From positions 1 to 64,000 of the forward strand of contig JAGXGY010000039.1 in NCBI GenBank assembly GCA_024636505.1: 64,000 nt of DNA, in the 5' to 3' direction. The translations under genes were made by a program, and so were the position numbers. The stretch's first letter is position 1. Each line of letters begins with the position of its first letter. The notes under the pieces were generated by a model. The model ran no database searches and was not told where the DNA came from. It saw only the letters and a list, made by a program, of their open reading frames with translations. Below are positions 991-44,438 of this stretch, piece after piece. Source of the DNA: Methylobacter sp. GTDB taxonomy: Bacteria > Pseudomonadota > Gammaproteobacteria > Methylococcales > Methylomonadaceae.

Positions 991-3900
991 ATGGCTAATA
1001 ATATAATTCTCTCCCCTGAAGTTCCGCAGAAACAACATCAATTACTTATCTGGAGCGGTTTAACCGGTTGCGGCGATTCGTTGGCGTTGGCTTCTGCGAT
1101 AAAAAATCAAGATTGTTTGTTTGTTATTGTGACGCCGGACAATCAGACCGCGTTGCGGCTTGAACATGAGCTGTCATTTTTCTTGCAGGATCAATATCCC
1201 CTTTTACATTTCCCCGATTGGGAAACCTTGCCTTACGATGTGTTCTCGCCGCTGCCGGAAATTATTTCAGAACGGCTGAAAACGCTGGCCTTGTTACCGC
1301 AGGTGAAACGCGGCGCGCTGGTGGTGTCGGTGACCACGCTGATGCATCGATTGGCGCCCCGAGAGCATGTCTTGGCTAACAGTTTTGCGGTTAAGGTCGG
1401 CGATGATTTTAATCTGGAGCTGAACCGCATCAAACTGGAAAGCGTCGGCTATCATTGCGTGTCGCAAGTCTATCAACACGGTGAATTTGCGGTCAGGGGT
1501 TCGATAGTCGATTTGTTCCCGATGGGCAGCAAGATGCCGTATCGCATCGAATTATTCGATGAAGAAATAGAATCCATCCGCACCTTCGATGCTGAAACGC
1601 AGCGGTCATTGGAGAAAATCGACCGGATTCAGCTGTTCCCGGCGCGGGAATTTCCGTTTACCGATGAGGCTATCAAGCATTTTCGCCAAGCTTTCAGGGA
1701 GGCTTTCCCGGAAACGTCACCGAAAAACCATTTCTATCAGGACGTCAGCAAGGGGATTACCCCGGGGGGCATTGAATATTATTTGCCGCTGTTCGTAGAG
1801 CAAATGGCGACATTGTTCGATTACCTGCCGAAATCGGCGGTTGTGGTGGCATCGGATAGTTTTGATGCCAGTTCACGCGCTTTTTATGCCGAAGTCGAGG
1901 ATCGGTTTCAGCAACGGAAATACGATGCGGACCGGCCGTTATTGAAGCCGGAACTGTTGTTTTTATCGACGGACGAACTGGCGCAAAGAACCGGGGCATT
2001 TGCCCGGATTATTCTTGATGGCATCGTTGCGGATGCCGATAGCATTGTTTTCAACTGCCGACCGCTGCCCAATGTAACCATCGATGCCAAGCATGAGCAA
2101 CCGGCGCAGGCATTGCAACAGTTTGTCGATAGCTTTGCCGGCAAGATTTTGTTTGTCGCAGAATCGGCAGGACGCCGCGAAGCCTTAATGGAGAGATTAA
2201 GGCAGTACAAAATTAGCGTGAAACAGGTCGAAAGCTGGGATAAGTTCCTCCAGTCGGAACTGTCGCCGTGTCTTGTTGTCGCGCCGATGGATCATGGCTT
2301 ATGGCTAACAAATCCGGCTATCGCGATCATCACCGAAAACCTACTGTCCGGCGAAAAAGTACAGCAACGGCGCAGACGGCGAAAATCTGCGGCGCATGAG
2401 CTGGAAAATATCGTCAATAACCTGAATGAATTGACCATAGGTTCGCCGGTGGTACATCAGGAGCATGGCGTGGGTCGCTATTTGGGTTTGCAGACGCTTG
2501 AGATTGGCGGTATCGCATCGGAATTTCTGACCTTGGAATATGCCAATAACGACAAGCTTTATGTGCCGGTTTCGGCCTTGCATGTGATTGGCCGCTATAC
2601 CGGCATGAGTCCGGAAAATGCGCCTTTGCATAAGCTGGGCGGCGACCAGTGGAATAAGGTCAAGCAAAAAGCCATTAAACGCATCCGCGATGTCGCTGCG
2701 GAATTACTGGAAATTCATGCCAAAAGAGCGGTTAAACTAGGCCATGCCTTTGACGTTGAAAATGTCGAATATGCGGCTTTTGCCGACGCCTTTCCCTTTG
2801 AAGAAACGCCGGATCAGCAGACTGCGATCGAAACGATACTCGATGATATGGCCAGCCCCCATCCTATGGACCGGGTGATTTGCGGCGATGTCGGTTTCGG
2901 TAAAACCGAGGTGTCGATGCGGGCGGCGTTTATTGCGGTACAAAACGGCAAACAAGTGGCGATATTGGTGCCGACCACTTTGCTGGCCCAGCAGCATTAT
3001 CAGAATTTTCGCGACCGCTTTGCCGACTGGCCGGTGCGCGTCGAAGTGCTGTCGCGCTTTGTCAGTCCCAAACAGCAAAAAGAGATTACCGACGATCTGG
3101 CACAGGGCAAGGTCGATATCGTCATCGGCACCCACAAGTTATTGTCTAAAGAGATCAAATATAAAGTGCTGGGGCTGGTGGTCATCGACGAAGAGCACCG
3201 CTTTGGCGTGACCCAAAAAGAGCATTTCAAGAAGCTGCGCAATGAACTGGATATGCTGACCCTGACGGCAACGCCGATTCCGCGCACTTTGAATATGGCG
3301 ATGTCGGGCTTGAGGGATATATCCATTATCGCCAGTCCGCCGCCTAATCGTCATGCGATCAAGACCTTTATCAGTGAATGGATCGATGCCCAGATCAGGG
3401 AAGCCTGTTTGCGTGAAATCAAGCGCGGCGGACAGGTGTTCTTTTTGCATAATGAAGTGAAAACCATGGAGAAAATGGCCCGGGAGCTGGAGGCTCTGGT
3501 GCCCGAGGCGCGGATTGAAATTGCCCACGGACAAATGCCGGAGCGCCAGTTAGAGCGCATCATGCTGGATTTTTATCATCAGCGCTTTAACCTGCTGTTG
3601 TGTTCGACTATTATTGAAAGCGGCATCGATATTCCCAGCGCCAATACCATTATTATCAATCGCGCCGATAAATTGGGCTTGGCGCAGCTGCATCAGTTGC
3701 GCGGCCGGGTAGGGCGTTCGCATCACCGGGCTTACGCCTATTTTGTGGTGCCGCCGCTTAGCTTGTTGAGCAAAGACGCTGTTAAACGGCTGGAAGCGGT
3801 TGAAGCCTCCGGCGATTTGGGCGCCGGCTTTATGCTGTCGTCGCATGACATGGAAATTCGCGGCGCGGGCGAGTTGCTCGGCGACGACCAAAGCGGTCAG

Positions 3901-4443
3901 ATTCAGGAAATCGGCTTTACCTTGTATACCGAATTGCTGGAACGCGCGGTCAGCGCCTTAAAATCCGGAAAACAGCCGGAGCTGGATATGCCGATGGATA
4001 GAGGGCCGGAAGTCGATTTGCAGACTTCGGCGCTGATTCCTGAAGACTATCTGCCGGATATTCATGGCCGTCTGGTGTTGTACAAACGCATTTCCAATGC
4101 CGAAAGCAAAAAAGATTTGCGCGAGCTACAGGTGGAAATGATCGATCGTTTCGGTTTGTTTCCCGAACCGGTAAAAGCGTTGTTTAGCGTTACCGAATTA
4201 AAGCAGCAGGCCGAAAAACTGGGCATTAAGAAAATAGAAGCCAATACAGGCGGTGGGCGTATTATTTTTTCAGCGACGCCTGCTATTAATACCGATCAGC
4301 TGATTGCTTTGATACAAACCCAGGCCCAGCTTTATAAATTCGATGGTGCCGACAAGTTACGATTTATCAAGCCGTTTGAAACGACCGAACAGAAGCTTGA
4401 ATTTATCACCGAGTTGCTCGATAAACTCACGGTAAAAAAATGA
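991..4443 (+). CDS. mfd: Transcription-repair coupling factor Mfd
   Basis: 1150 aa; UvrB-like N-terminus, CarD-like RNAP-interaction domain (GSPVVHQEHGVGRYLGL), helicase motifs GDVGFGKTEV and DEEHRFGV. Confidence 0.97.
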   Translation: MANNIILSPEVPQKQHQLLIWSGLTGCGDSLALASAIKNQDCLFVIVTPDNQTALRLEHELSFFLQDQYPLLHFPDWETLPYDVFSPLPEIISERLKTLALLPQVKRGALVVSVTTLMHRLAPREHVLANSFAVKVGDDFNLELNRIKLESVGYHCVSQVYQHGEFAVRGSIVDLFPMGSKMPYRIELFDEEIESIRTFDAETQRSLEKIDRIQLFPAREFPFTDEAIKHFRQAFREAFPETSPKNHFYQDVSKGITPGGIEYYLPLFVEQMATLFDYLPKSAVVVASDSFDASSRAFYAEVEDRFQQRKYDADRPLLKPELLFLSTDELAQRTGAFARIILDGIVADADSIVFNCRPLPNVTIDAKHEQPAQALQQFVDSFAGKILFVAESAGRREALMERLRQYKISVKQVESWDKFLQSELSPCLVVAPMDHGLWLTNPAIAIITENLLSGEKVQQRRRRRKSAAHELENIVNNLNELTIGSPVVHQEHGVGRYLGLQTLEIGGIASEFLTLEYANNDKLYVPVSALHVIGRYTGMSPENAPLHKLGGDQWNKVKQKAIKRIRDVAAELLEIHAKRAVKLGHAFDVENVEYAAFADAFPFEETPDQQTAIETILDDMASPHPMDRVICGDVGFGKTEVSMRAAFIAVQNGKQVAILVPTTLLAQQHYQNFRDRFADWPVRVEVLSRFVSPKQQKEITDDLAQGKVDIVIGTHKLLSKEIKYKVLGLVVIDEEHRFGVTQKEHFKKLRNELDMLTLTATPIPRTLNMAMSGLRDISIIASPPPNRHAIKTFISEWIDAQIREACLREIKRGGQVFFLHNEVKTMEKMARELEALVPEARIEIAHGQMPERQLERIMLDFYHQRFNLLLCSTIIESGIDIPSANTIIINRADKLGLAQLHQLRGRVGRSHHRAYAYFVVPPLSLLSKDAVKRLEAVEASGDLGAGFMLSSHDMEIRGAGELLGDDQSGQIQEIGFTLYTELLERAVSALKSGKQPELDMPMDRGPEVDLQTSALIPEDYLPDIHGRLVLYKRISNAESKKDLRELQVEMIDRFGLFPEPVKALFSVTELKQQAEKLGIKKIEANTGGGRIIFSATPAINTDQLIALIQTQAQLYKFDGADKLRFIKPFETTEQKLEFITELLDKLTVKK

Positions 4444-4567
4444 CGATGATGAGATTGATAGCTTGCAGTCCGGCGGCAATTGAAAAAAGATGAGTGCCGG
4501 CAGGGTTTTTATGCTATCAAGAAAGTCGTAACGCCTTGTTAGCCAAATACTTAACCGAGGAATAATA

Positions 4568-5098
4568 ATGAAAAGAAAAGACATCGTGCCGACAAGTCAG
4601 GAACGGGTGATGCGGGAAAATGATTTTATCGTTTCCAAGACCGACCTGGCCGGACGGATTACCTACGGGAATGAAATCTTTATCGAGTTTTCCGGATATG
4701 AAGAGGAAGAGCTTTTGGGCAGTCAGCATAATATCATTCGTCACCCGGATATGCCGAGGGCGGTATTTAAGTTATTGTGGGACTATATAGCAGAAGACAA
4801 AGAGATTTTTGCTTACGTCAAAAATATGTCAAAAGACGGTGGGTTTTATTGGGTATTTACTCATGTCGCGCCCATGTTAGACAAAAATAAACAGAAAATC
4901 GGCTACAGCTCGGTGCGCAGGATGCCTAATCCTAAGGCTATTCCGATTGTGACCGGGGTTTATCGCGCGATGCTGGATGCCGAGCGTAATGCCGGGGCGA
5001 AAGATGCGATGACTGCTTCAGGCGCGGTATTGGGCGGTGTGTTAAAAGACAAGGGTGTTAGTTACGAGGAGCTGATCAATGTATTACAGTCGCTTTAA
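4568..5098 (+). CDS. PAS-domain protein (Aer-type PAS, separate from the receptor body)
   Basis: [41 protein letters not shown], an Aer-like PAS; no MCP domain in the same ORF. Confidence 0.85.
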
Positions 5099-6839
5099 AA
5101 ACAATGAAAAGTTGGCCTTAGCAGTAGCGGCTTTTTTCTGGATCGCTTCGCTGATTTACGGGTGGTTGCTTACGCTGGGGATAATCGGTGGCGGGGTGAT
5201 GGTGTCGGGAGTATTAACGGCAGGATCGGCCTTATCTGCTTTTTGGTGGTGTAAATCAGGATCGGGCGATCAACAGTTGCTTGAAAAGTTACTGAGGGCA
5301 ACTCAGGAATGGCGGCAAGGTTCTGTAGATGTCAGGGTTACCCATATTGGCGGTAAGCAGCGCCCGATACAACAGCTTGCCTGGGCGATGAATGATTTGA
5401 TGGATCAGGTGGAAACTGCACAGGTCGATATGTATTATTCGATGGCTTATGTCACTTACGGCGATTTTTCTCGAAAAAGTTATCCGGAAGGCTTGCATGG
5501 CGGCTTTGCGACGGCTCTGAAGCAACTGAATGGCGTTGTAAAAACCTTGTCTATCACCACAGCGGCTATTACTGAGCTGATGAATGCGATAGCGGAAGGT
5601 GATTTTAATAAGAAAGTTAGTGTTAATGTTGGAGGCGAATACAAATTTGCTGTAGACCATGCCCTGCAAGCCATGCAGGCTATGCAGGCTATGCTCGGCG
5701 ATGTCGGTCGGGTGATGGGCGGTGTGGCTTGTGGCGACATCAGTCAGCGTGTTCAGGCCGAAGGTCGAGGCGACCTCGGTAAATTGAAAGACGATATCAA
5801 TCTGTCGCTCGATGCCCTGGGCAGTTTGAATGATATATCACTTATTGCCAGTGCCTTGTCCGATGGCGATCTGACTCAAACTATCAATAAGGACTATCCC
5901 GGCACTTTTGGCGCAGTGATTACCGGCATGAACGGTACCGTGGAAAACCTTAGAGGTCTGGTAGGAGAAATCAAGGATTCCACTAACAATATCAATACCG
6001 CCGCCCAAGAGATTGCTGCGGGTAATAATGATTTGTCGCATCGCACCGAAGAGCAGGCTGCCAGTTTAGAACAGACTGCGGCCAGTATGGAGGAATTGAC
6101 CGCCACCGTGCAGCTGAACGCCAAAAGCGCCCAGCAGGCCAATCAGCTTGCTGTGGGTGCGACGGATATTGCAGGCAAGGGGGTCGTCGTGGTCGACCAA
6201 GTAGTAACGACGATGGAAGGCATTAATGAATCCTCACGCAAGATTGTGGATATTATCTCAGTGATCGACAGTATTGCTTTTCAAACCAATATTCTTGCTC
6301 TTAACGCTGCAGTAGAAGCGGCGCGTGCAGGTGAGCAAGGGCGTGGTTTTGCCGTAGTGGCTGGGGAAGTGCGTAATCTTGCCCAACGCGCTGCCGCTGC
6401 CGCAGGAGAAATAAAAGGTTTGATTGGCGATTCGGTAGAAAAGGTTGAGGATGGCACTAAATTGGTTGCTCAGGCTGGAAAAACCATGGAAGAAATTGTT
6501 AGCGCCATTCGTGGCGTCACTGTCATTATGTCGGAGATCAGAGCAGCTTCCGTTGAACAAACTTCCGGTATCGAGCAGGTCAATCAGGCCATTGGACAAA
6601 TGGATGAAGTCACCCAACAAAATGCTGCGTTAGTGGAGCAGGCAGCCGCCGCTGCAGAATCGCTGGAAGAGCAGGCGCAGAACTTGTCGGTTACCGTAGG
6701 TCGTTTTACGGTTGATAACCGCTCGGGTAGTTTCCAGAATTCTCCCCGCGTCATGCCCTCAGCAATGAAAAGTCCCGTACCGATCAGGGCGAAACCGCAG
6801 TTACAGCCGGTTTCCGAGGGTGATTGGGAGGAGTTTTAA
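5079..6839 (+). CDS. Methyl-accepting chemotaxis protein
   Basis: Two N-terminal hydrophobic segments, HAMP-like repeats, MCP hairpin ([42 protein letters not shown]), C-terminal DWEEF. Confidence 0.95.
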
Positions 6840-8662: not shown

Positions 8663-8760
8663 CGCAGATGACGCAGATGACGCAGATGAATATGATGAAC
8701 TCAGATAATTCAATAAAAATCTTATTTAATCATAATTATCAGCGCCATCAGCGTTCCATT
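8647..8760. repeat. Small repeat element with inverted ends AATGGAACGC/GCGTTCCATT and four tandem ACGCAGATG units
   Basis: Four 9-bp units at 8653-8688; outer inverted ends at 8647-8656 and 8751-8760. Confidence 0.8.
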
Positions 8761-8791
8761 TTTCTAACTACTGAGTAGCTACAATTAATTT

Positions 8792-21245: not shown

Positions 21246-22856
21246 ATGACAGATTCCAAAACAAAAATAGAACGACTCGATGACTTGGTTTTTGATAATC
21301 GATTTATCCGCGAGCTACCTGCCGATGCCGAAACCGCCAATCATCGCCGTCAAGTGACTGGTGCCTGTTATTCGCGGGTATTGCCTGCTAAGGCCGCCAA
21401 TCCTCAAATGGCCGCATATTCCAGAGAGGTTGCAGAACTACTGGATTTGAGTAAGGAAATTTGTGAATCTGCCGGTTTTACCCAGGTGTTTGTCGGCAAT
21501 CGGCTGTTATCCGGGATGGATCCTTATGCGATTTGTTACGGCGGTCACCAGTTCGGCAACTGGGCGGGACAACTCGGTGACGGTCGCGCGATTAATCTGG
21601 GCGAAGTGCTTAATCGCCGGGGCGAGCATTGGACGTTGCAGTTTAAAGGCGCCGGTGAAACGCCTTACTCAAGGAATGCGGACGGCTTGGCGGTATTGCG
21701 CTCCTCGGTGCGCGAGTTTTTGTGCAGCGAAGCCATGCATCATCTGGGCGTACCGACCACGCGGGCGTTGAGTCTGATACTGACCGGCGACCAGGTTATC
21801 CGCGATATGTTTTACAACGGTAATCCCAAACCCGAACCGGGTGCCGTGGTCTGTCGGGTTGCGCCGTCGTTTACCCGCTTTGGCAGTTTCCAGATTTTTG
21901 CCGCCAGGGGCGAGATTGGTTTGCTGAAAAAACTGCTGGACTACACCATCCGCACCGACTTTCCGCATTTGGGCGAGCCGTCGCGTGAGGTTTATCTGGC
22001 CTGGTTTGCAGAAGTCTGCCGCAGAACGGCAAAAATGATTGTGCACTGGCAGCGGGTCGGCTTTGTGCATGGGGTGATGAATACCGATAATATGTCGATA
22101 CTCGGCCTTACCATAGACTACGGGCCTTACGGCTGGCTGGAAAATTACGATCCCAACTGGACGCCCAACACCACCGATGCCGCAGAACGCCGCTATCGTT
22201 TCGGCAACCAGCCGCAGATTGCGTTTTGGAATCTGGGGCAATTGGCCAACGCCATTTATCCGCTGATAGAGCAAGTCGAACCTTTGCAACAGGCGATCAA
22301 TGTCTATACCGAAACGTTTACGCAGCATTGGCAAGCCATGGTTGCCGCCAAGCTGGGCTTGAATGTCTATGATCCGGCCGCCGATGACCCGCTAAACACC
22401 GAGCTGTTGATTATCTTGCAAGTAGTTGAGACCGACATGACTCTTTTTTATCGCAAGCTGGCGGGGCTGGTCATGGATGTTGAACTCAGCAATGAGGCTT
22501 TGATGCTGCCGCTGATGGAAGCCTATTATGCGCCGGAGCAGTTAACCGACGACTACAAAGCGCGTCTTGGCAACTGGCTTAGGTCTTACATAAAACGGGT
22601 GCAAGGTGCCGACATAGCCGATGCCGAACGAATTCAAAGCATGAACTCCGTCAATCCCAAATACGTGTTACGCAATTATCTGGCGCAACTGGCGATAGAC
22701 AAGGCCGAGCAGGGCGATTTTTCGATGGTCGATGAGCTGTTGGAACTGTTGCGCCATCCCTACGACGAACAACCCGGCAAGGAAGCGTTCGCCTTAAAAC
22801 GTCCCGACTGGGCAAGGCAACGGCCGGGCTGTTCGATGTTGTCGTGCAGTTCTTGA
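21246..22856 (+). CDS. selO: Protein adenylyltransferase SelO (YdiU family)
   Basis: YGGHQFGNWAGQLGDGRAINLGEV, LQFKGAGETPYSRNADGLAVLRSSVREFLCSEAM, FVHGVMNTDNMSILGLTIDYGPYG, C-terminal CSMLSCSS. Confidence 0.97.
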   Translation: MTDSKTKIERLDDLVFDNRFIRELPADAETANHRRQVTGACYSRVLPAKAANPQMAAYSREVAELLDLSKEICESAGFTQVFVGNRLLSGMDPYAICYGGHQFGNWAGQLGDGRAINLGEVLNRRGEHWTLQFKGAGETPYSRNADGLAVLRSSVREFLCSEAMHHLGVPTTRALSLILTGDQVIRDMFYNGNPKPEPGAVVCRVAPSFTRFGSFQIFAARGEIGLLKKLLDYTIRTDFPHLGEPSREVYLAWFAEVCRRTAKMIVHWQRVGFVHGVMNTDNMSILGLTIDYGPYGWLENYDPNWTPNTTDAAERRYRFGNQPQIAFWNLGQLANAIYPLIEQVEPLQQAINVYTETFTQHWQAMVAAKLGLNVYDPAADDPLNTELLIILQVVETDMTLFYRKLAGLVMDVELSNEALMLPLMEAYYAPEQLTDDYKARLGNWLRSYIKRVQGADIADAERIQSMNSVNPKYVLRNYLAQLAIDKAEQGDFSMVDELLELLRHPYDEQPGKEAFALKRPDWARQRPGCSMLSCSS

Positions 22857-24020: not shown

Positions 24021-24078
24021 TCCAGTCGCGACGTAGGCGTCGCTCCCACGTGGGAGCGACGCCTACGTCGCGACTGGA
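24021..24078. repeat. 58-bp perfect palindrome, REP-like
   Basis: TCCAGTCGCGACGTAGGCGTCGCTCCCACGTGGGAGCGACGCCTACGTCGCGACTGGA. Confidence 0.9.
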
Positions 24079-31606: not shown

Positions 31607-31636
31607 AGGCTAAAGGCTATTAAGCCATTGACACCG

Positions 31637-31717
31637 TAGGAGCGGGCCAGGTCCGAGACATTTGGGCAGCGATTGCAGAGTTGTAGCCCTTTCATCGCGG
31701 CATGGCCCGCTCCTACA
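31637..31717. repeat. REP-like inverted repeat
   Basis: GTAGGAGCGGGCCA ... TGGCCCGCTCCTAC. Confidence 0.85.
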
Positions 31718-31818
31718 ACTTAATGGCATTGGAGCTAGGGGGGCTGTGTTAAAGCTTGGTTTTTTTGCCCTTTGCCTTTCGCCTTTTTTATAAAAAATAA
31801 ATAAATGGAGTAAACAAA

Positions 31819-33420: not shown

Positions 33421-34738
33421 ATGAAGGAACCGATGAAATTTTATCGAAACGAGTATTGGCTGGTGTTTCCGTTACTGGCGTCCGGCGGACTGGGTGCGAT
33501 AGGCATTGCAGTTTTCAGTCGTTTTGTCATGACTGGTTGGGTTATGGCGGCCGGTTTGGTCATTATGACTGTGTCGGCTTGTGTTACTGGAGCCGTAACC
33601 GCTATCGGATGTCATTGCACACTATCGAACAGGGTTTGTTTGAAGATTTGCAACAGAAAAATGAGGAAGTCATCAAGGCCTTGCGGGATGCGCATCATGA
33701 AGCCGTTTTGCTGGCTAGCGCCCGGCAAGTCGAGGCGGAGCGCATGCATCTCAAGGCATTAAGCACCGATTTAGCGCGACGTTTCGAAGCATTGTCAAAA
33801 CGTCTCGGCGGACGGGAACAAGAAAAAACGGAGCAAGGCGATGCGGTGCATTTATCTGTCGAAACACAGATTGCAGATTTAGCGCAACGTTTCGATGCCT
33901 TGTCGAAGCGACTCGATGCCGCTGTTATCGCATCGCAAAACACCGTCGGCGGCGACCACGATTCAAGCGGCGGGATCGTAGAGCTGCTGAAAGACAGCTA
34001 GGTCGAGTTAAGCACTATCACCCAAGCGCTGGGCGCTTCATTGGAAGAAAAAGAAAAATTGTTGCGCTCAATCGAGGACTTGTCCGGCTTTACCGAACAA
34101 CTGAGCAAAATGGCCGGGGAAGTCAGCAGCATTGCCAGTCAGACTAACCTGTTGGCGCTGAATGCAGCTATTCAGGCGGCACGGGCCGGAGAGGGGGGGG
34201 GCGCGGCTTTTCAGTGGTTGCCGATGAAGTGAGGAAATTGTCGCGCTCATCCGGCGATGTCGGTAAGAAAATTACCGAGACCATCGAAGCGGTCAGCGAG
34301 GCGATCGAGGACACTTTAGTTGTTTCCCGGAAATTCGCCCGACAAGATGAAGAAACCTTAGGTAATGCGGAACGGATTATTGATTCGGTATTGAGGCGCT
34401 TCAGTCGGGCCGCATCCGGATTGACCGAATCCGAGGAGCTGTTGCGTACCGAAAACAACGCGATCAACTATGAAATATCCGATGTTTTTGTCGCTCTGCA
34501 GTTTCAGGATCGGGTCAGCCAGATTCTGGCGCTGGTCTGTGACGATCTGAATAAACTCGAACAGCATTTAAACGAGCTTAAAAGCCAACAAGCCGATGAG
34601 GGATCATCCCGCTCGGTGAATGTGGAGCAATGGCTGGAAGAGCTGTCCAAGACTTACACTATGGAAGAGCAACTTACGGCACACGATGGTACCAAAGCTG
34701 AGATCAAAACCGATCAACCCGGCATTACATTTTTTTAA
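33421..34738 (+). pseudogene. Disrupted methyl-accepting chemotaxis protein
   Basis: TM segment in frame 1, coiled coil in frame 3, in-frame TAG near 34000, MCP core [24 protein letters not shown]9 run 34193-34201 then FSVVADEVRKLS in frame 2. Confidence 0.88.
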
Positions 34739-34748
34739 GGAGTTAACC

Positions 34749-35117
34749 ATGGCAAAAACAATACTGTTTGTAGAAGACTCAGCCTCGGTCAGGCAGGTGA
34801 TGAATAGCACCCTGACCCGCGAGGGCTACGATGTGATTCTGGCTTGCGACGGTCAGGACGCCTTGACCAGGCTGGACGGCAGCAAAATATACCTGATCAT
34901 CAGCGACGTGAACATGCCCAATATGGACGGCCTTACTTTTGTTAAGAGCGCCAAACAAATGCCCGCCTATAAATCCACCCCGATCATCATGCTGACTACC
35001 GAAACCCAGGAAGTGAAGATGAATGAAGGCAAAGCGGCCGACGTTAAAGCCTGGATCGTCAAGCCTTTTCAACCGGCACAGCTGCTGGCAGCGGATTCGC
35101 AGCTTATTCAGGCATAA
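34749..35117 (+). CDS. CheY-like response regulator
   Basis: MAKTILFVEDSASVRQVMNSTLTREGYDVILACDGQDAL...LIISDVNMPNMDGL...VKPFQPAQLL. Confidence 0.94.
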   Translation: MAKTILFVEDSASVRQVMNSTLTREGYDVILACDGQDALTRLDGSKIYLIISDVNMPNMDGLTFVKSAKQMPAYKSTPIIMLTTETQEVKMNEGKAADVKAWIVKPFQPAQLLAADSQLIQA

Positions 35118-35471: not shown

Positions 35472-36263
35472 ATGATCCCAGACGAATATCTACAAACCTT
35501 TGTTATTGAAGGCAGAAAATTGCTTCAGGAAATGGAAGAAGCTCTGCTTATCGTAGAGCAGGCGTCGGAAGATCCGGAAGTTATCAACGCCATATTCCGG
35601 GCGGCGCATACCATTAAAGGCTCGGCCGGTATGTTCGGCATCGACCATGTGGTGGTGTTTACCCATGCTGCGGAAAGCGTACTGGATAGGGTGCGTAGCG
35701 GCGATGTATCAATGAGTTCGGCGTTGGCGGCATTATTTATTGAAGCGCACGATCATTTGAAAGTATTGATCGATCATGTTGCCGAAGGCCGTCATCCCCC
35801 TGGCGAAATCGACAGTGACGGTAAAAGATTAATAGAGCAGCTGGATGAACACCTGAACGATGCGGCGGCGGACCAACCTGAAAATTCCGGCGAAATGGCC
35901 GAAAGCGCCGTCAAACTGTTGGATACCATGGTGCCGTCGATCAAAAACACTTCGGGCCTGGTGCAGGAAATCGCCGCAGCCTCCGAAGAGCAGTCGGCAG
36001 GCGTGAGCCAAATCAATACCGCGATGAACCAGCTCAACCAGATCACCCAGCAGAACGCCAGTTCATCGGAACAGTTGGCCGCCACTTCGGAACAGATGAG
36101 CGGACAGGCCGCGCAATTGCGGGAGCTGATGGCGTTCTTTACCGTGGCTGATAGTGCTGACGGGGTATTCTCAGTCAACAATATTAAGCCTTTCAAGTCT
36201 GCGGTTAAAAAAACGGCGGCGGCAATACAAAGGCTTAACGAAGCCGAATTGGTCGGGTTTTAG
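35472..36263 (+). CDS. Chimeric ORF: CheA N-terminal Hpt domain fused to an MCP C-terminal signalling region (probable deletion product)
   Basis: AAHTIKGSAGMFGIDHVVVFTHAAESVLDRVRSGDV (P1) followed after about residue 135 by VKLLDTMVPSIKNTSGLVQEIAAASEEQSAGVSQINTAMNQLNQITQQNASSSEQLAATSEQMSGQAAQLRELMAFF (MCP C-terminus). Confidence 0.88.
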   Translation: MIPDEYLQTFVIEGRKLLQEMEEALLIVEQASEDPEVINAIFRAAHTIKGSAGMFGIDHVVVFTHAAESVLDRVRSGDVSMSSALAALFIEAHDHLKVLIDHVAEGRHPPGEIDSDGKRLIEQLDEHLNDAAADQPENSGEMAESAVKLLDTMVPSIKNTSGLVQEIAAASEEQSAGVSQINTAMNQLNQITQQNASSSEQLAATSEQMSGQAAQLRELMAFFTVADSADGVFSVNNIKPFKSAVKKTAAAIQRLNEAELVGF

Positions 36264-36429
36264 GTGTCGGGCATCAATGCAATCACACCAGTTGGCCGCC
36301 GCTTTATTGGGCATCTCCATACCGGACAAGGTGTGCACCGCCCAGCTTTTTGGGCTTTGTATCCGTAAAAATATTGTCAAATCAAATCAATAATAAAACG
36401 AATGATTCAGTTCGTGAGGGAAAGTTTAC

Positions 36430-38751
36430 ATGAAAATAAATATGCCGGTAACTAACCAGGAAATCCCAATGAAAAAGGGTGCGCTATTGGTTACACGAAC
36501 TGACCTGAAAGGGGTTATCACTTACGTCAATGATGAGTTTGTCGCTATCAGCGGTTTTACCCGCGATGAACTGATCGGTGCAAGCCATAACATTGTCCGC
36601 CATCCCGACATGCCTGAGGCCGCTTTTGAAGATTTATGGCTGAACTTAAAAGCGCTTAGGCCCTGGAACGGCATAGTAAAAAACAGGTCAAAATCTGGCG
36701 ATTATTACTGGGTAGACGCGAATGCCATGCCGGTGTTTAAAAACGGCAAGGTTCATGAGTACCTTTCCGTTCGACGCGCGCCCAGCCGTGAAAAGATCGA
36801 AAAAGCGGAACAGTTATACCGGCAGCTTAATGCTAGGCAAGCAACCATCAGACCTACCGGTTTGGCCGCAGGGCTTAAGTCGATCAAGGAAATGGATGCC
36901 TGGAAAAAAATGGCTGCGGCGCTGGCGGTGCTGTTGATCCCCGTTTTCTATCTGATGTACCAGCTGTTTTTAACGCAGGATTATTTGCTGCTGGCCGGTG
37001 TTGCCGCGTCAGTGATGATTGCCTCGGCGATAGGCTACAGTGTCATCAAAAGCTTCACCACGACGTTAAATAAAACCATCGGCATTTTTTACCGCCTAGC
37101 CGAGAAAAGGTTCGGCAATGTGCAGGATTTAGCCCGGAACGACTTGATCGGCGATTTCCAGCGCGCCCTGTATTCCATGGAAGTGAATTTGAGCCTGGAC
37201 TTGTCGCAATCCAGGGACGATGCTGCCAAAGCCATGCGTATTAATCAGGCGCTGGATAACGTCAAATCCGGGGTGATGGTGGCCAATACCAATTTTGAAA
37301 TTATTTATACCAACGATAGTGTCGAGCGCATGCTCAAGGCCGCCGAGCAGGATTTTCGTACTCAGTTGCCGCATTTCGATGCCGATAAACTGATAGGCGA
37401 AAATATCGACAGTTTTCACCAGGATCCCGCTCATCAGCGTCGCCTGCTGGAAAACTTAAAGGAGGCCAGCAGCTCAGACCTGATTATTGCAGGTCAACAT
37501 ATGCATATTATCGCCAGCCCGGTTATTAATGATGAAGGCGAACACATCGGTTTTGTCGCCGAATGGCAAAACCGGACACAGGATATAAGAATCGAACAGG
37601 AGATTGGGCAATTAGTGCAGGATGTTAAAGCCGGTGATCTGAGCAGCCGCATTAACATGGGCGATAAACAAGGCTTTGCCAAAATGTTGTCGTCCGGCAT
37701 CAACGAATTAACCGATGTCATAGAAAGCGTCTTTAACGACATTAACAGCGTTATGGAAAATATGTCCCAAGGCGATTTGACCGCTCCTATCAGCAACGAT
37801 TACCAAGGCGTTTACGCCGAATGCAAGAATAATATCAACGGCACTCTAACCAACTTAAGCAACTTCATTATTCAAATCCGGGATGCGGCTGATTTTATCG
37901 ACAGCTCGTCTCAGGAAATGGCCAGCGGCAATAACAACCTTTCCCATCGCGCCGAGCAACAGGCGGCCAACCTGGAGGAAACCGCCGCCAGCATGGAACA
38001 GCTTGCCAGCACCGTCAGAAATAATGCCGATAACACCCAACAGGCCAATCAAGTTGTCAATTCAGCCAGCCAGTTAGCGCAAAAAGGCGGCGATGTGGTG
38101 AATTCAGCCATCACGGCGATGCAGGAAATCAATGACAGCAGCAACAAGATTGCCGAGATTATCAGCGTGATCGATGAAATCGCCTTCCAAACCAACCTGC
38201 TGGCCTTGAATGCGTCGGTGGAAGCGGCCCGGGCGGGCGAGCAAGGGCGCGGCTTTTCGGTGGTTGCAACCGAAGTGCGCAATCTGGCGCAACGCAGCGC
38301 CAATGCTGCCAAGCAAAGTAACGACCTGATCCAGAACAGCATACAAAAAGTCCGCGCAGGGACGGCCTTTGTCAATGAAACCGGCGTGGCGCTAACTGAA
38401 ATCGTCAACAGCGTTGCACAAGTGGGCGACATGGTTTCCCAAATTGCCAGCGCCAGCGCGGAGCAGACGGCGGGTATCGATCAGGTCAATCAGGCGGTTG
38501 CCCAGATGGATGATATTACCCAGCAAAATGCCGCTCTCGCGGAACAGGCGGCAGCGGGCAGTATTGCGATAACTGAGCAGTCTACCCATATGACCCAGCT
38601 GCTCGGTTTTTTTAACGTCAATTCGAAGCGGACTGCTACCGCGTCCGTTAAAACAATAGAGCGCAGCAAAGCTGCAGTGGCGACTAAGCGTATTGCGCCT
38701 GCTTCCTCAAGTAAGCCAAAACACGATGATGGCGAGTGGGAAGAGTTTTGA
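36430..38751 (+). CDS. Aer-like PAS methyl-accepting chemotaxis protein
   Basis: [44 protein letters not shown]; second PAS-like region; MCP hairpin; C-terminal GEWEEF. Confidence 0.95.
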
Positions 38752-39614: not shown

Positions 39615-40144
39615 ATGACAAGCCCTTTATTCCCTTTGGAGATATTTCTTCACTCCGGCGATTATTATTTCGCAGATCGGGACACCCGCATTCGTACCGT
39701 GCTGGGATCATGCGTTGCGATAACCTTTTGGCACCCTCAATTGCGGTTGGGCGGGATGTGCCATTACATGCTGCCGGAACGAGGCAGCGATCGCGTAACA
39801 CATGACCGGCCGGGGCGGTATGCCGATACCGCCGTTGCCCTGCAGCTGGAGGAAATGGATGCCGTTGGGACCCTCCATCAGGAATATCAGGTCAAGTTAT
39901 TCGGCGGCGGCAATATGTTTCCCGAAACACATAAAAATATGAATACGATGTTCCAGGTCGGCAGCCGGAATGTACAGGCCGCGCGGCAACTTGCCAAACA
40001 ACATGGTTTTACCTGCGTGGCCGAGCACTTGGGCGACATCGGACATCGCAACGTGATTTTTGAGGTGTGGAGCGGACAGGCTTGGGTTAAGCACAGTCAT
40101 ATATTGCCCGTATTCGAGTATGAACCGATAAGCAGGGATCAACA

Positions 40145-40148
<4 letters not shown>
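39615..40148 (+). CDS. cheD: Chemoreceptor glutamine deamidase CheD
   Basis: [39 protein letters not shown]. Confidence 0.94.
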
Positions 40149-40890
<742 letters not shown>

Positions 40891-40907
40891 TGAGTGAATA
40901 ATGGAAT

Positions 40908-42337
40908 TTGGCGAACCCACAAAATTCCCACCGGAGAGCGGTATCGGGACTGTGCAGAAAACATGCCCCGACGGTTTTCGTAGCCGACCCCGGCGACGGC
41001 TACCGGCTGCTCCATGTCGGCGCAAGCTGTCGGCACTTTGGAGATAGCCATGAACCCCTGCATGGCAGGTTTCTGCCGGCATATATCCCGACGCTCACCC
41101 GGGCCAAGTTGAAACAGTTATAGCGGGAGGTCGGCGAATATAACAGCACATCCATGGAGCCCGATTACCGCCTGGCATCGGGCTCGCGTATCGCTATTGA
41201 GATCACTTTCAGCCTGCTCGAGCATAAGGGACGGAAGCTGATGGTCGGTTATATCTGCGACATCAGTGCGCGCCGGGCTCTGGAAGTCGAACGCCTGCGT
41301 TTGGCTGAAGAGGTTGCCGTTCAGGAAATCGAGTTTCGATATCGGGAAATATTTGACAATGTCACCGACGGCATTTTTCTGCTGGACGTGGTGCATGGCG
41401 AGCGTTTTCGCTTTGTCGGTATCAATCCGTCCATGACGCGGATGACCGGGATCATTCAGAGGGATATTCTCGGTTGTTTTGTCGAAAATATCATGCCGGA
41501 ACGCAGCGCCCGGAAAATGATTGCCAATTACAGGTAATGCGTGCAAGAGGCTAAGCCTGTCGGCTTTGAGATGGAGCTGGAGTTGTCGGGCAGCAAAAAA
41601 ATATTCAACTCGATGCTGATTCCGGTACGCGACGAGTTCGGTCATATTCATCGCATCATCAGCCTGAGCAGCGACATCACCGAGCGCAAGGCTGCCGATA
41701 AGCAGATCGCCCTGTTGAACTATTCCCTGGACCATGTCAAAGAGTCGGTTTTACTGACAGGTGAAGATGCGCAACTCTATTATGTTAACGAAGAATTCTG
41801 CCGAAGACTGGGGTACAGCTGCGATCAACTGCTCGGCTTAGGCGTTTCGGATTTTGACCCCGACTACCCCTTGGATCGCTGGCCTGAGCACTGGCGCGAC
41901 CTCAAGGAAAAATGGTTCGCTCATTTTTGAAAGCCGCCATATGACCAAGGATGGCCGCATTAGGCCTGTTACTGAACGATCAGGACGATGTGCTGAATAA
42001 GTTGAGGCATTTTTATGAGGTCGGTATGGAGTTGGCGCTGGACGATTTCGGTACCGATTATTCGGCGATGGCTTATCTGAAAAAATTCAACATCGACTAC
42101 ATCAAGATCGAGCGTTCTTTCGTTCGCGATCTGGAAACCGATCCCAGCGACCGGGCGATAGCGGAAGCGATTGTGGCAATGGCGCGCCGATTGGGATTGA
42201 AGGTGATTGCGGAAGGCGTGGAAACCGAAGGTCAGCGGACCTTGTTGATGGCGGTGGGTTGTGAGTACGTGCAGGGCTATCTGTATGCCAAACCGATGCC
42301 CATTGAGACGTTTTTAGAGTATGTGCTGGGGCGATGA
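40908..42337 (+). pseudogene. Degenerate PAS-sensor/EAL region lacking GGDEF
   Basis: PAS/PAC pieces (LSSDITERKAADKQIALLN...), TAA at 41535-41537, frame change near 41910, then EAL C-terminus LALDDFGTDYSAMAYLKKFNIDYIKIERSFV...LKVIAEGVETEGQRTLL. Confidence 0.85.
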
Positions 42338-42370: not shown

Positions 42371-42597
42371 TGGTTTGCAATAGAGCAGGTCGAACCTTTG
42401 CAACAGGCGATCAATGTCTATAATCCGGACGCCGATGACCCGCTAAACACCGAGTTGTCGATTATCTTGCAAGTAGTAGTTGAGACCGACATGATCCTTT
42501 TTTATCGCAAGCTGGCGGGGCTGGTCATGGACGTTGAACTCCGCAATGAAGTCCTCCCGCCAAGGAAGCGTTCGCCTTAAAACGCCCCGACCGGGGG
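42371..42597 (+). pseudogene. selO: selO fragment with internal deletions
   Basis: IEQVEPLQQAINVYNPDADDPLNTELSIILQVVVETDMILFYRKLAGLVMDVELRNE and AAGGAAGCGTTCGCCTTAAAACGCCCCGAC match intact selO at about 22267-22510 and 22781-22810. Confidence 0.95.
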
Positions 42598-42617: not shown

Positions 42618-43451
42618 TTATTTAACGCGCTTCCATCTACCGTGAATATAATCTAAGGCTTCCCGAATATTCAAATCACGAGTTCCGCCACCGGTTCTAA
42701 CAAAAAATTTTGGTGTATTGCCTTGATCTAAAAATACAGGTCTGGGGGCAGGGGAAACAATAAGACGACAAACCTCTTTATTATCAATTACATGAAATAA
42801 TACATGGACAAATTGGCAGAGATCAGCACCCAAGTTGTTTGAAATAGCGGCCATTAGATTTTGTTCAAAACCATCCTGGTTCGGTTTTTTCAGGGTTTGA
42901 TAATCCTTATCCAGGCCGATAATCTGGCCATCGTCCGATACACCAATCAGCAATGTTCCACTGAGATGACTATTTAAAAATCCGGCGAGTGTTTTTAGAA
43001 CAACGCCTTCCAATGAGCGATTGACGCGTGATTCAACCATATCCCAACGCAACGAAGATTTAAATTCCAAATAAGAGCCTTCGCCTTTCTGAATAATCGA
43101 CAGTAAATCTTTATCTAATTCGTTTTTTAAGTGATCAATGTTGACTAGGCGTTGATGAATGAATTTGTATAGCACCAGCGATAATAGCCCAAGCATCGCG
43201 CCGATTTCGGCATAGAATATAAGCAATGTAGCGCTTTCATCGGATAAATTTCCGGTAAAAAGAGACGCAATTTGTTTTAAAACATACTCGATCGATGACA
43301 GCGGATTAATGGTCTGTTCGCGTGCATAGATGTAGTCGTAACTTGGCGCCAATACAAAAATGCCAATTATCGCGCCAGTCAAGGCGACGGCAAGGTAAAC
43401 CTTTAATTGTTGGCGCCAAATTGACAGCATCAGTAAGAAAAATCTTTTCAT
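42618..43451 (-). CDS. Membrane protein with AlbA_2/Schlafen-like domain
   Basis: Two TM regions, then GEGSYLEFKSSLRWD...VVLKTLAGFLNSHLSGTLLIGVSDDGQIIGLDKDY...RTGGGTRDLN. Confidence 0.85.
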   Translation of the reverse strand: MKRFFLLMLSIWRQQLKVYLAVALTGAIIGIFVLAPSYDYIYAREQTINPLSSIEYVLKQIASLFTGNLSDESATLLIFYAEIGAMLGLLSLVLYKFIHQRLVNIDHLKNELDKDLLSIIQKGEGSYLEFKSSLRWDMVESRVNRSLEGVVLKTLAGFLNSHLSGTLLIGVSDDGQIIGLDKDYQTLKKPNQDGFEQNLMAAISNNLGADLCQFVHVLFHVIDNKEVCRLIVSPAPRPVFLDQGNTPKFFVRTGGGTRDLNIREALDYIHGRWKRVK

Positions 43452-43517: not shown

Positions 43518-44438
43518 TTAGCCTGCCCCCTTCCATTTTTGCTTGCGGGCTTTTTTCTTGGCCTCTTTCTCCGCCCGAATAATCACCAGCTCGGCCAGTT
43601 CCTTTTCCATCATGTCTGGTATTTCCAGGCTGATTCTGCCTATGGTGCCGGCGCGTAATTCGGACAGCAGGATTTTGGAGACTTTATCCATTTCGATGTG
43701 CCCGCCTGAGCGCAGGCAACCGCGTTTTTTGCCGATAGCTTCCATCAGCTGTTGCTCGCTTTCCGGGAGTTGCTCCAGTTGAAAGCGGGCTTTCAATAAA
43801 CCGGGGTAATGCTGCAGCAGGTATTCGGCGGCGAAGAAGGCGACATTCTCATGGCTGATGGCGGTGTCCTTGATTGCGCCGGTGGTAGCTAGCCGGTAGC
43901 CGCTGTTTTTGTTTTCGACATTGGGCCACAGCATGCCGGGCGTGTCGAAAAGAATAATGCCGTTGCCGATATCAATGCGTTGCTGGCTCTTGGTGATAGC
44001 CGGTTCGTTGCCGGTTTTGGCGATGATTCTGCCGGCCAGAATATTGATCAGTGTGGATTTGCCGACATTAGGTATGCCCATAATCAGCGTGTGGATGAGT
44101 CTGCCGCTGCTCTGTTTGGTCGGCAGCATCTTGTGGCACAGTTCGGTCAGCTGGCGCATTTTTTCCGGCTGCTCGGTGGTCAGCGCCAGGGTTTTTACGC
44201 CTTGTTCCTGTTCCAGATAGCTTTGCCATTGCTGCGTGATCTCGGGATCGGCAAGGTCGCTCTTGCTGAGTACTTTGATGCAGGGTTTGTCGCCGCGCAG
44301 GGCGGTCAACATCGGATTTTGGCTGCTGAACGGGATGCGCGCGTCCAGAATTTCGATAATCAGGTCAACCTGGGGCAGGATTTCTTTAACGGCTTTGCTG
44401 GCCTTGTGCATATGGCCGGGGTACCACTGAATAAGCAT
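43518..44438 (-). CDS. ylqF: Ribosome biogenesis GTPase YlqF/RbgA family
   Basis: IQWYPGHMHKASKAVKEILPQVDLIIEILDARIPFSSQNP; circularly permuted motifs (SKSDLAD, GIPNVGKSTLIN). Confidence 0.93.
   Translation of the reverse strand: MLIQWYPGHMHKASKAVKEILPQVDLIIEILDARIPFSSQNPMLTALRGDKPCIKVLSKSDLADPEITQQWQSYLEQEQGVKTLALTTEQPEKMRQLTELCHKMLPTKQSSGRLIHTLIMGIPNVGKSTLINILAGRIIAKTGNEPAITKSQQRIDIGNGIILFDTPGMLWPNVENKNSGYRLATTGAIKDTAISHENVAFFAAEYLLQHYPGLLKARFQLEQLPESEQQLMEAIGKKRGCLRSGGHIEMDKVSKILLSELRAGTIGRISLEIPDMMEKELAELVIIRAEKEAKKKARKQKWKGAG

Follow-up and report, generated by a model that had tools for sequence, protein, structure and literature searches.

The chemotaxis locus and its genes

The window analysed here is a 64,000-nt stretch of contig JAGXGY010000039.1 from Methylobacter sp., a methane-oxidising bacterium, and all coordinates refer to it. 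A chemotaxis (che) block occupies approximately 23.3–42.4 kb, between selO (21246–22856) and a GTPase gene (43518–44438). It contains an ORF at 35472–36263 on the plus strand, which runs from ATG to TAG and encodes 263 aa. The ORF and its neighbours are composed of the following features, given with the evidence for each:

33421–34738 (+): mcp-like gene broken up over three frames and shortened by a deletion of 171 bp at ~33886; an intact 491-aa protein of a relative (G010) matches frames 1, 3 and 2
34749–35117 (+): cheY, full length; Response_reg 2e-24, 93% identity over 122 aa
35134–35460 (+): STAS-domain gene, full length; STAS_2 9.1e-16
35472–35889 (+): 5' part of cheA, P1/Hpt with H46, K49, H65 and E68; PF01627 and 68–78% identity to CheA starts
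35889–35897 (+): cheA/mcp deletion junction, ~3.72 kb gone, in frame; the left and right references switch here
35890–36263 (+): 3' end of mcp, post-tip limb and tail, tip missing; PF00015 profile 113–172, no tip motif
36288–36430 (+): site from which cheW is missing; in L045, cheW (6140–6700) lies between the same two mcp genes
36430–38751 (+): PAS-PAS-HAMP-MCP gene, full length, 773 aa; Pfam, 5' half 82% identical to L045
39149–39613 (+): cheR remnant, interrupted by a stop in its N-terminal region and shortened by an in-frame deletion of 369 bp at ~39444; comparison with relatives
39615–40148 (+): cheD, full length, with a raised replacement/silent ratio; CheD 1.8e-28
40145–40890 (+): cheB remnant, with a ~346-bp frame-shifting deletion at ~40288; frame 2 before it, frame 1 after it
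40874–42337 (+): remnant of a ~2187-aa PAS-EAL gene, with frameshifts and a ~5.04-kb deletion at 41961; pieces in several frames

The block thus carries at least six deletions within 9 kb (171, ~3720, the cheW region, 369, ~346 and ~5040 bp), and three of the five that were sized are in frame. The mcp-like gene has two frameshifts in addition to its deletion, and a search of the window's contig for a CheW domain found none.

Domain composition of the 263-aa ORF

Two Pfam domains, and no others, are present in the ORF: Hpt (PF01627) at residues 5–97 (E 4.5e-18) and, at residues 133–192, the last part of MCPsignal (PF00015), covering profile positions 113–172 of 172 (E 6.6e-8; 33 bits, slightly below the cut-off of 34.6). 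The P3–P5 domains of CheA (dimerisation, ATPase and CheW-like), found in the CheA of an intact relative, are absent. Residues 1 to ~143 align to the N-termini of full-length, 711–742-aa CheA proteins of the genus with 68–78% identity, while residues ~130–263 align to the C-termini of MCPs of relatives with up to 73% identity. These domains and matches indicate that the ORF consists of two true coding segments in frame rather than a chance ORF. They agree with the original prediction of a CheA P1 start fused in frame to an MCP C-terminal end, and the frame is open over all 263 aa as it had stated, with no stop in 35472–36263.

The first segment resembles the CheA histidine kinase in P1 sequence, active-site residues, start region and operon position, but it lacks P2–P5, with 140 of ~730 residues left. 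It keeps the whole P1 quartet His46, Lys49, His65 and Glu68, the active-site residues of the CheA P1 domain. The second segment shares the post-tip C-terminal limb and tail with the MCP cytoplasmic domain, but the sensor, membrane part, HAMP, first limb and signalling tip are missing. The tip motif GRGFxVVAxEVR, which stands at residue 470–472 in intact receptors of 625 and 626 aa in G020, was not found in the ORF; the MCP part starts past the hairpin tip, and a complete signalling hairpin, whose tip is the binding site for CheA and CheW, is missing. A product without the kinase core, the CheW-binding part and the receptor part, consisting of P1 and a tip-less MCP limb, would probably be inert if it is made.

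Ancestral gene order and the deletion junction

The intact operon of relatives has the order mcp-like, cheY, STAS, cheA, mcp, cheW, followed further on by cheR, cheD and cheB. The closest layout is that of L045, from the same genus, with STAS at 1284–1622, cheA at 1619–3808, mcp at 4224–6131, cheW at 6140–6700 and a PAS-mcp gene from 6978. Contig C86 of G010 likewise has cheA, mcp and cheW, with cheR, cheD and cheB in that order further along. Measured on C86, the cheA/mcp deletion is 3720 bp, a multiple of three, and begins at codon ~140 of cheA, reaching into the 3' end of the mcp that follows; its size in L045 is similar. The deletion origin proposed for the fusion is supported by the intact cheA-mcp-cheW order in these relatives and by the junction at about 35889–35897. 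The ancestral order had been given as cheA-cheW-mcp, which L045 and C86 contradict. With cheW lying after mcp, a single deletion took P2–P5 and the front of the receptor, as proposed, but it did not take cheW, which was lost separately downstream.

An intact operon in close relatives had been named as one mark of simple debris, and L045 and G010 both have it. An intact form of this cheA, encoding 711–742 aa, is present in 11 of 22 congeners, counted as matches with E < 1e-50 to the first half of the ORF.

Many deletions within so short a stretch of a draft genome (69 contigs, 86.7% complete) might suggest that they are artefacts of assembly or DNA amplification arising from chimeric reads, and that the operon is intact in the organism. 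This explanation is most improbable. The deletion ends share only 2–9 bp, far below an assembler's word, and the missing parts of CheA and CheW are absent from the rest of the assembly. The frameshifts, the stop and an excess of replacement changes, moreover, are found in the che block and not in its neighbours. Large ORFs of the window outside the block are open (1150, 1475, 1783, 1172 and 1124 aa), and where the window was compared with G010 and G020 it is mostly collinear within blocks and over long distances, so that indel error is not general in the assembly.

Genomic context of the operon

The genome keeps a second CheA (725 aa) and a CheW on another contig (C13), and it retains flagella, with fliM present. 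The broken che operon is therefore accessory, in keeping with the fact that half of the congeners lack it. Loss of motility was considered as the cause of the decay and rejected, since fliM and the second che set are retained.

selO and the GTPase gene adjoin in G020 and G010, while the whole signalling/che block (22860–43515) lies between them in this genome, so the block has moved into its present place. At its far end, 42380–42595 is a shrunken duplicate of the 3' part of selO (22266–22812), with pieces 92–98% identical and internal deletions, one of which has an end overlap of ~10 bp. This remnant is adjoined by a minus-strand gene (42618–43451) for a protein whose Schlafen AlbA_2 domain is preceded by a long N-terminal extension. 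A near-perfect palindrome of ~58 bp at 24021–24078, resembling REP or MITE dispersed repeats, has many copies on both strands of contigs C1, C35, C44, C53 and C68. Further short dispersed repeats at 759–902, 8671–8784 and 31619–31742 have many copies here and in congeners.

Selection on the surviving pieces

Substitutions private to this genome were counted with G020 as the outgroup. The che block has 153 replacement and 156 silent private changes (N/S 0.98), compared with 51 and 115 for the same block in G010 (N/S 0.44; Fisher p 1e-4) and 415 and 812 for the other window genes of this genome (N/S 0.51; p 5e-7 vs the che block). The Hpt piece alone has 22 replacement and 16 silent changes, whereas G010 has 1 and 12 there (p 0.003). 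An N/S of 1.4, as in Hpt, is below what would generally be expected under zero constraint, a point against debris, although part of this branch predates the deletion. A stricter count, restricted to sites where all other relatives agree and summed over the che segments, gave 34 replacement and 10 silent changes here and 5 and 10 in G010. These counts, in which the branch also spans a period preceding the deletion, the MCP tail is possibly compared with paralogues and sites are assumed to be independent, point to relaxed selection on the surviving pieces, Hpt included, on this lineage only.

The retained active site raises the question of function. The ORF could encode a soluble Hpt protein that would receive phosphoryl groups from the second CheA and either pass them on to CheY-like proteins or serve these as a sink, while its MCP limb would dimerise through a coiled coil. 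The intact P1 quartet, the open frame, the full-length cheY next door and the presence of another CheA in the genome are in keeping with such a protein. It is nevertheless very unlikely in view of the relaxed selection on the Hpt piece, in which C14G, E16K, E19Q and I37V are private changes at positions each invariant in ten relatives. The P1 of the other CheA is only 48% identical to that of the ORF, the surrounding operon is broken, and no orthologue of the fusion was found in the collections searched. A residual phosphotransfer role, suggested by the retained active-site residues, is possible but unlikely.

Distribution of the fusion

No fused orthologue was found in 60 relatives or across another 300 genomes from the order. 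A peptide-pattern scan of ~85,000 species, which detects close relatives only and, with one genome per species, is silent on sister strains, found none either. A conserved family of Hpt-MCP fusions was considered and rejected, as each of the matches listed covered one half only, and a literature search for such a fusion found nothing. The results from the order and the scan support the original statement that no established family is known with a layout of Hpt followed by an MCP tail.

Origin of the ORF and its meaning

The ORF is best explained as a deletion-fusion pseudogene derived from a deletion in a dispensable chemotaxis operon, with a probability of roughly 0.9; a 3.7-kb deletion in a decaying operon most likely left it behind as a scar, which makes it a case of ordinary gene decay. 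On this explanation, a chemotaxis operon missing from about half of the genus is being lost in this lineage by repeated short-range deletions. One of these, of ~3.7 kb, brought codon ~140 of cheA up against the 3' end of the neighbouring mcp, the frame staying open by a one-in-three chance. Slippage or end joining is the presumed mechanism, as some deletion ends share short identity. This identity reaches 9 bp at cheR and 7 bp at cheB (at least 7 bp has a chance probability of ~0.001) and is ~2–3 bp at the cheA/mcp and EAL junctions, while the deletion in the mcp-like gene lies within imperfect repeats. A single short-repeat mechanism for all deletions was rejected, since only cheR and cheB show long end identity.

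The locus has in common with deletion-fusion pseudogenes of decaying operons an intact operon in relatives, broken neighbours, relaxed selection and a lack of orthologues; it differs from them in that the fused reading frame is open by chance. Counting against debris, besides this lack of a stop, are the retained P1 active-site residues and cheA start region, the four genes still at full length (cheY, STAS, cheD and one mcp) and the three in-frame deletions among the five sized. An in-frame deletion might also have given rise to a newborn, lineage-specific soluble phosphotransfer protein that ties up phosphoryl groups or the coiled coils of receptors in the chemotaxis system that is left, a highly improbable origin. 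The functional new protein that had been thought conceivable is not supported, as the operon is decaying as a whole and its Hpt piece is under relaxed selection.

As a probable deletion-fusion pseudogene, the ORF belongs to a locus that provides a clear snapshot of the loss of an accessory chemotaxis operon by several short-range deletions, some of them in frame. Automatic annotation would name the leftover ORFs of such deletions as new fusion proteins, and an intact ORF should not be taken for a designed domain architecture unless its neighbours have been checked.
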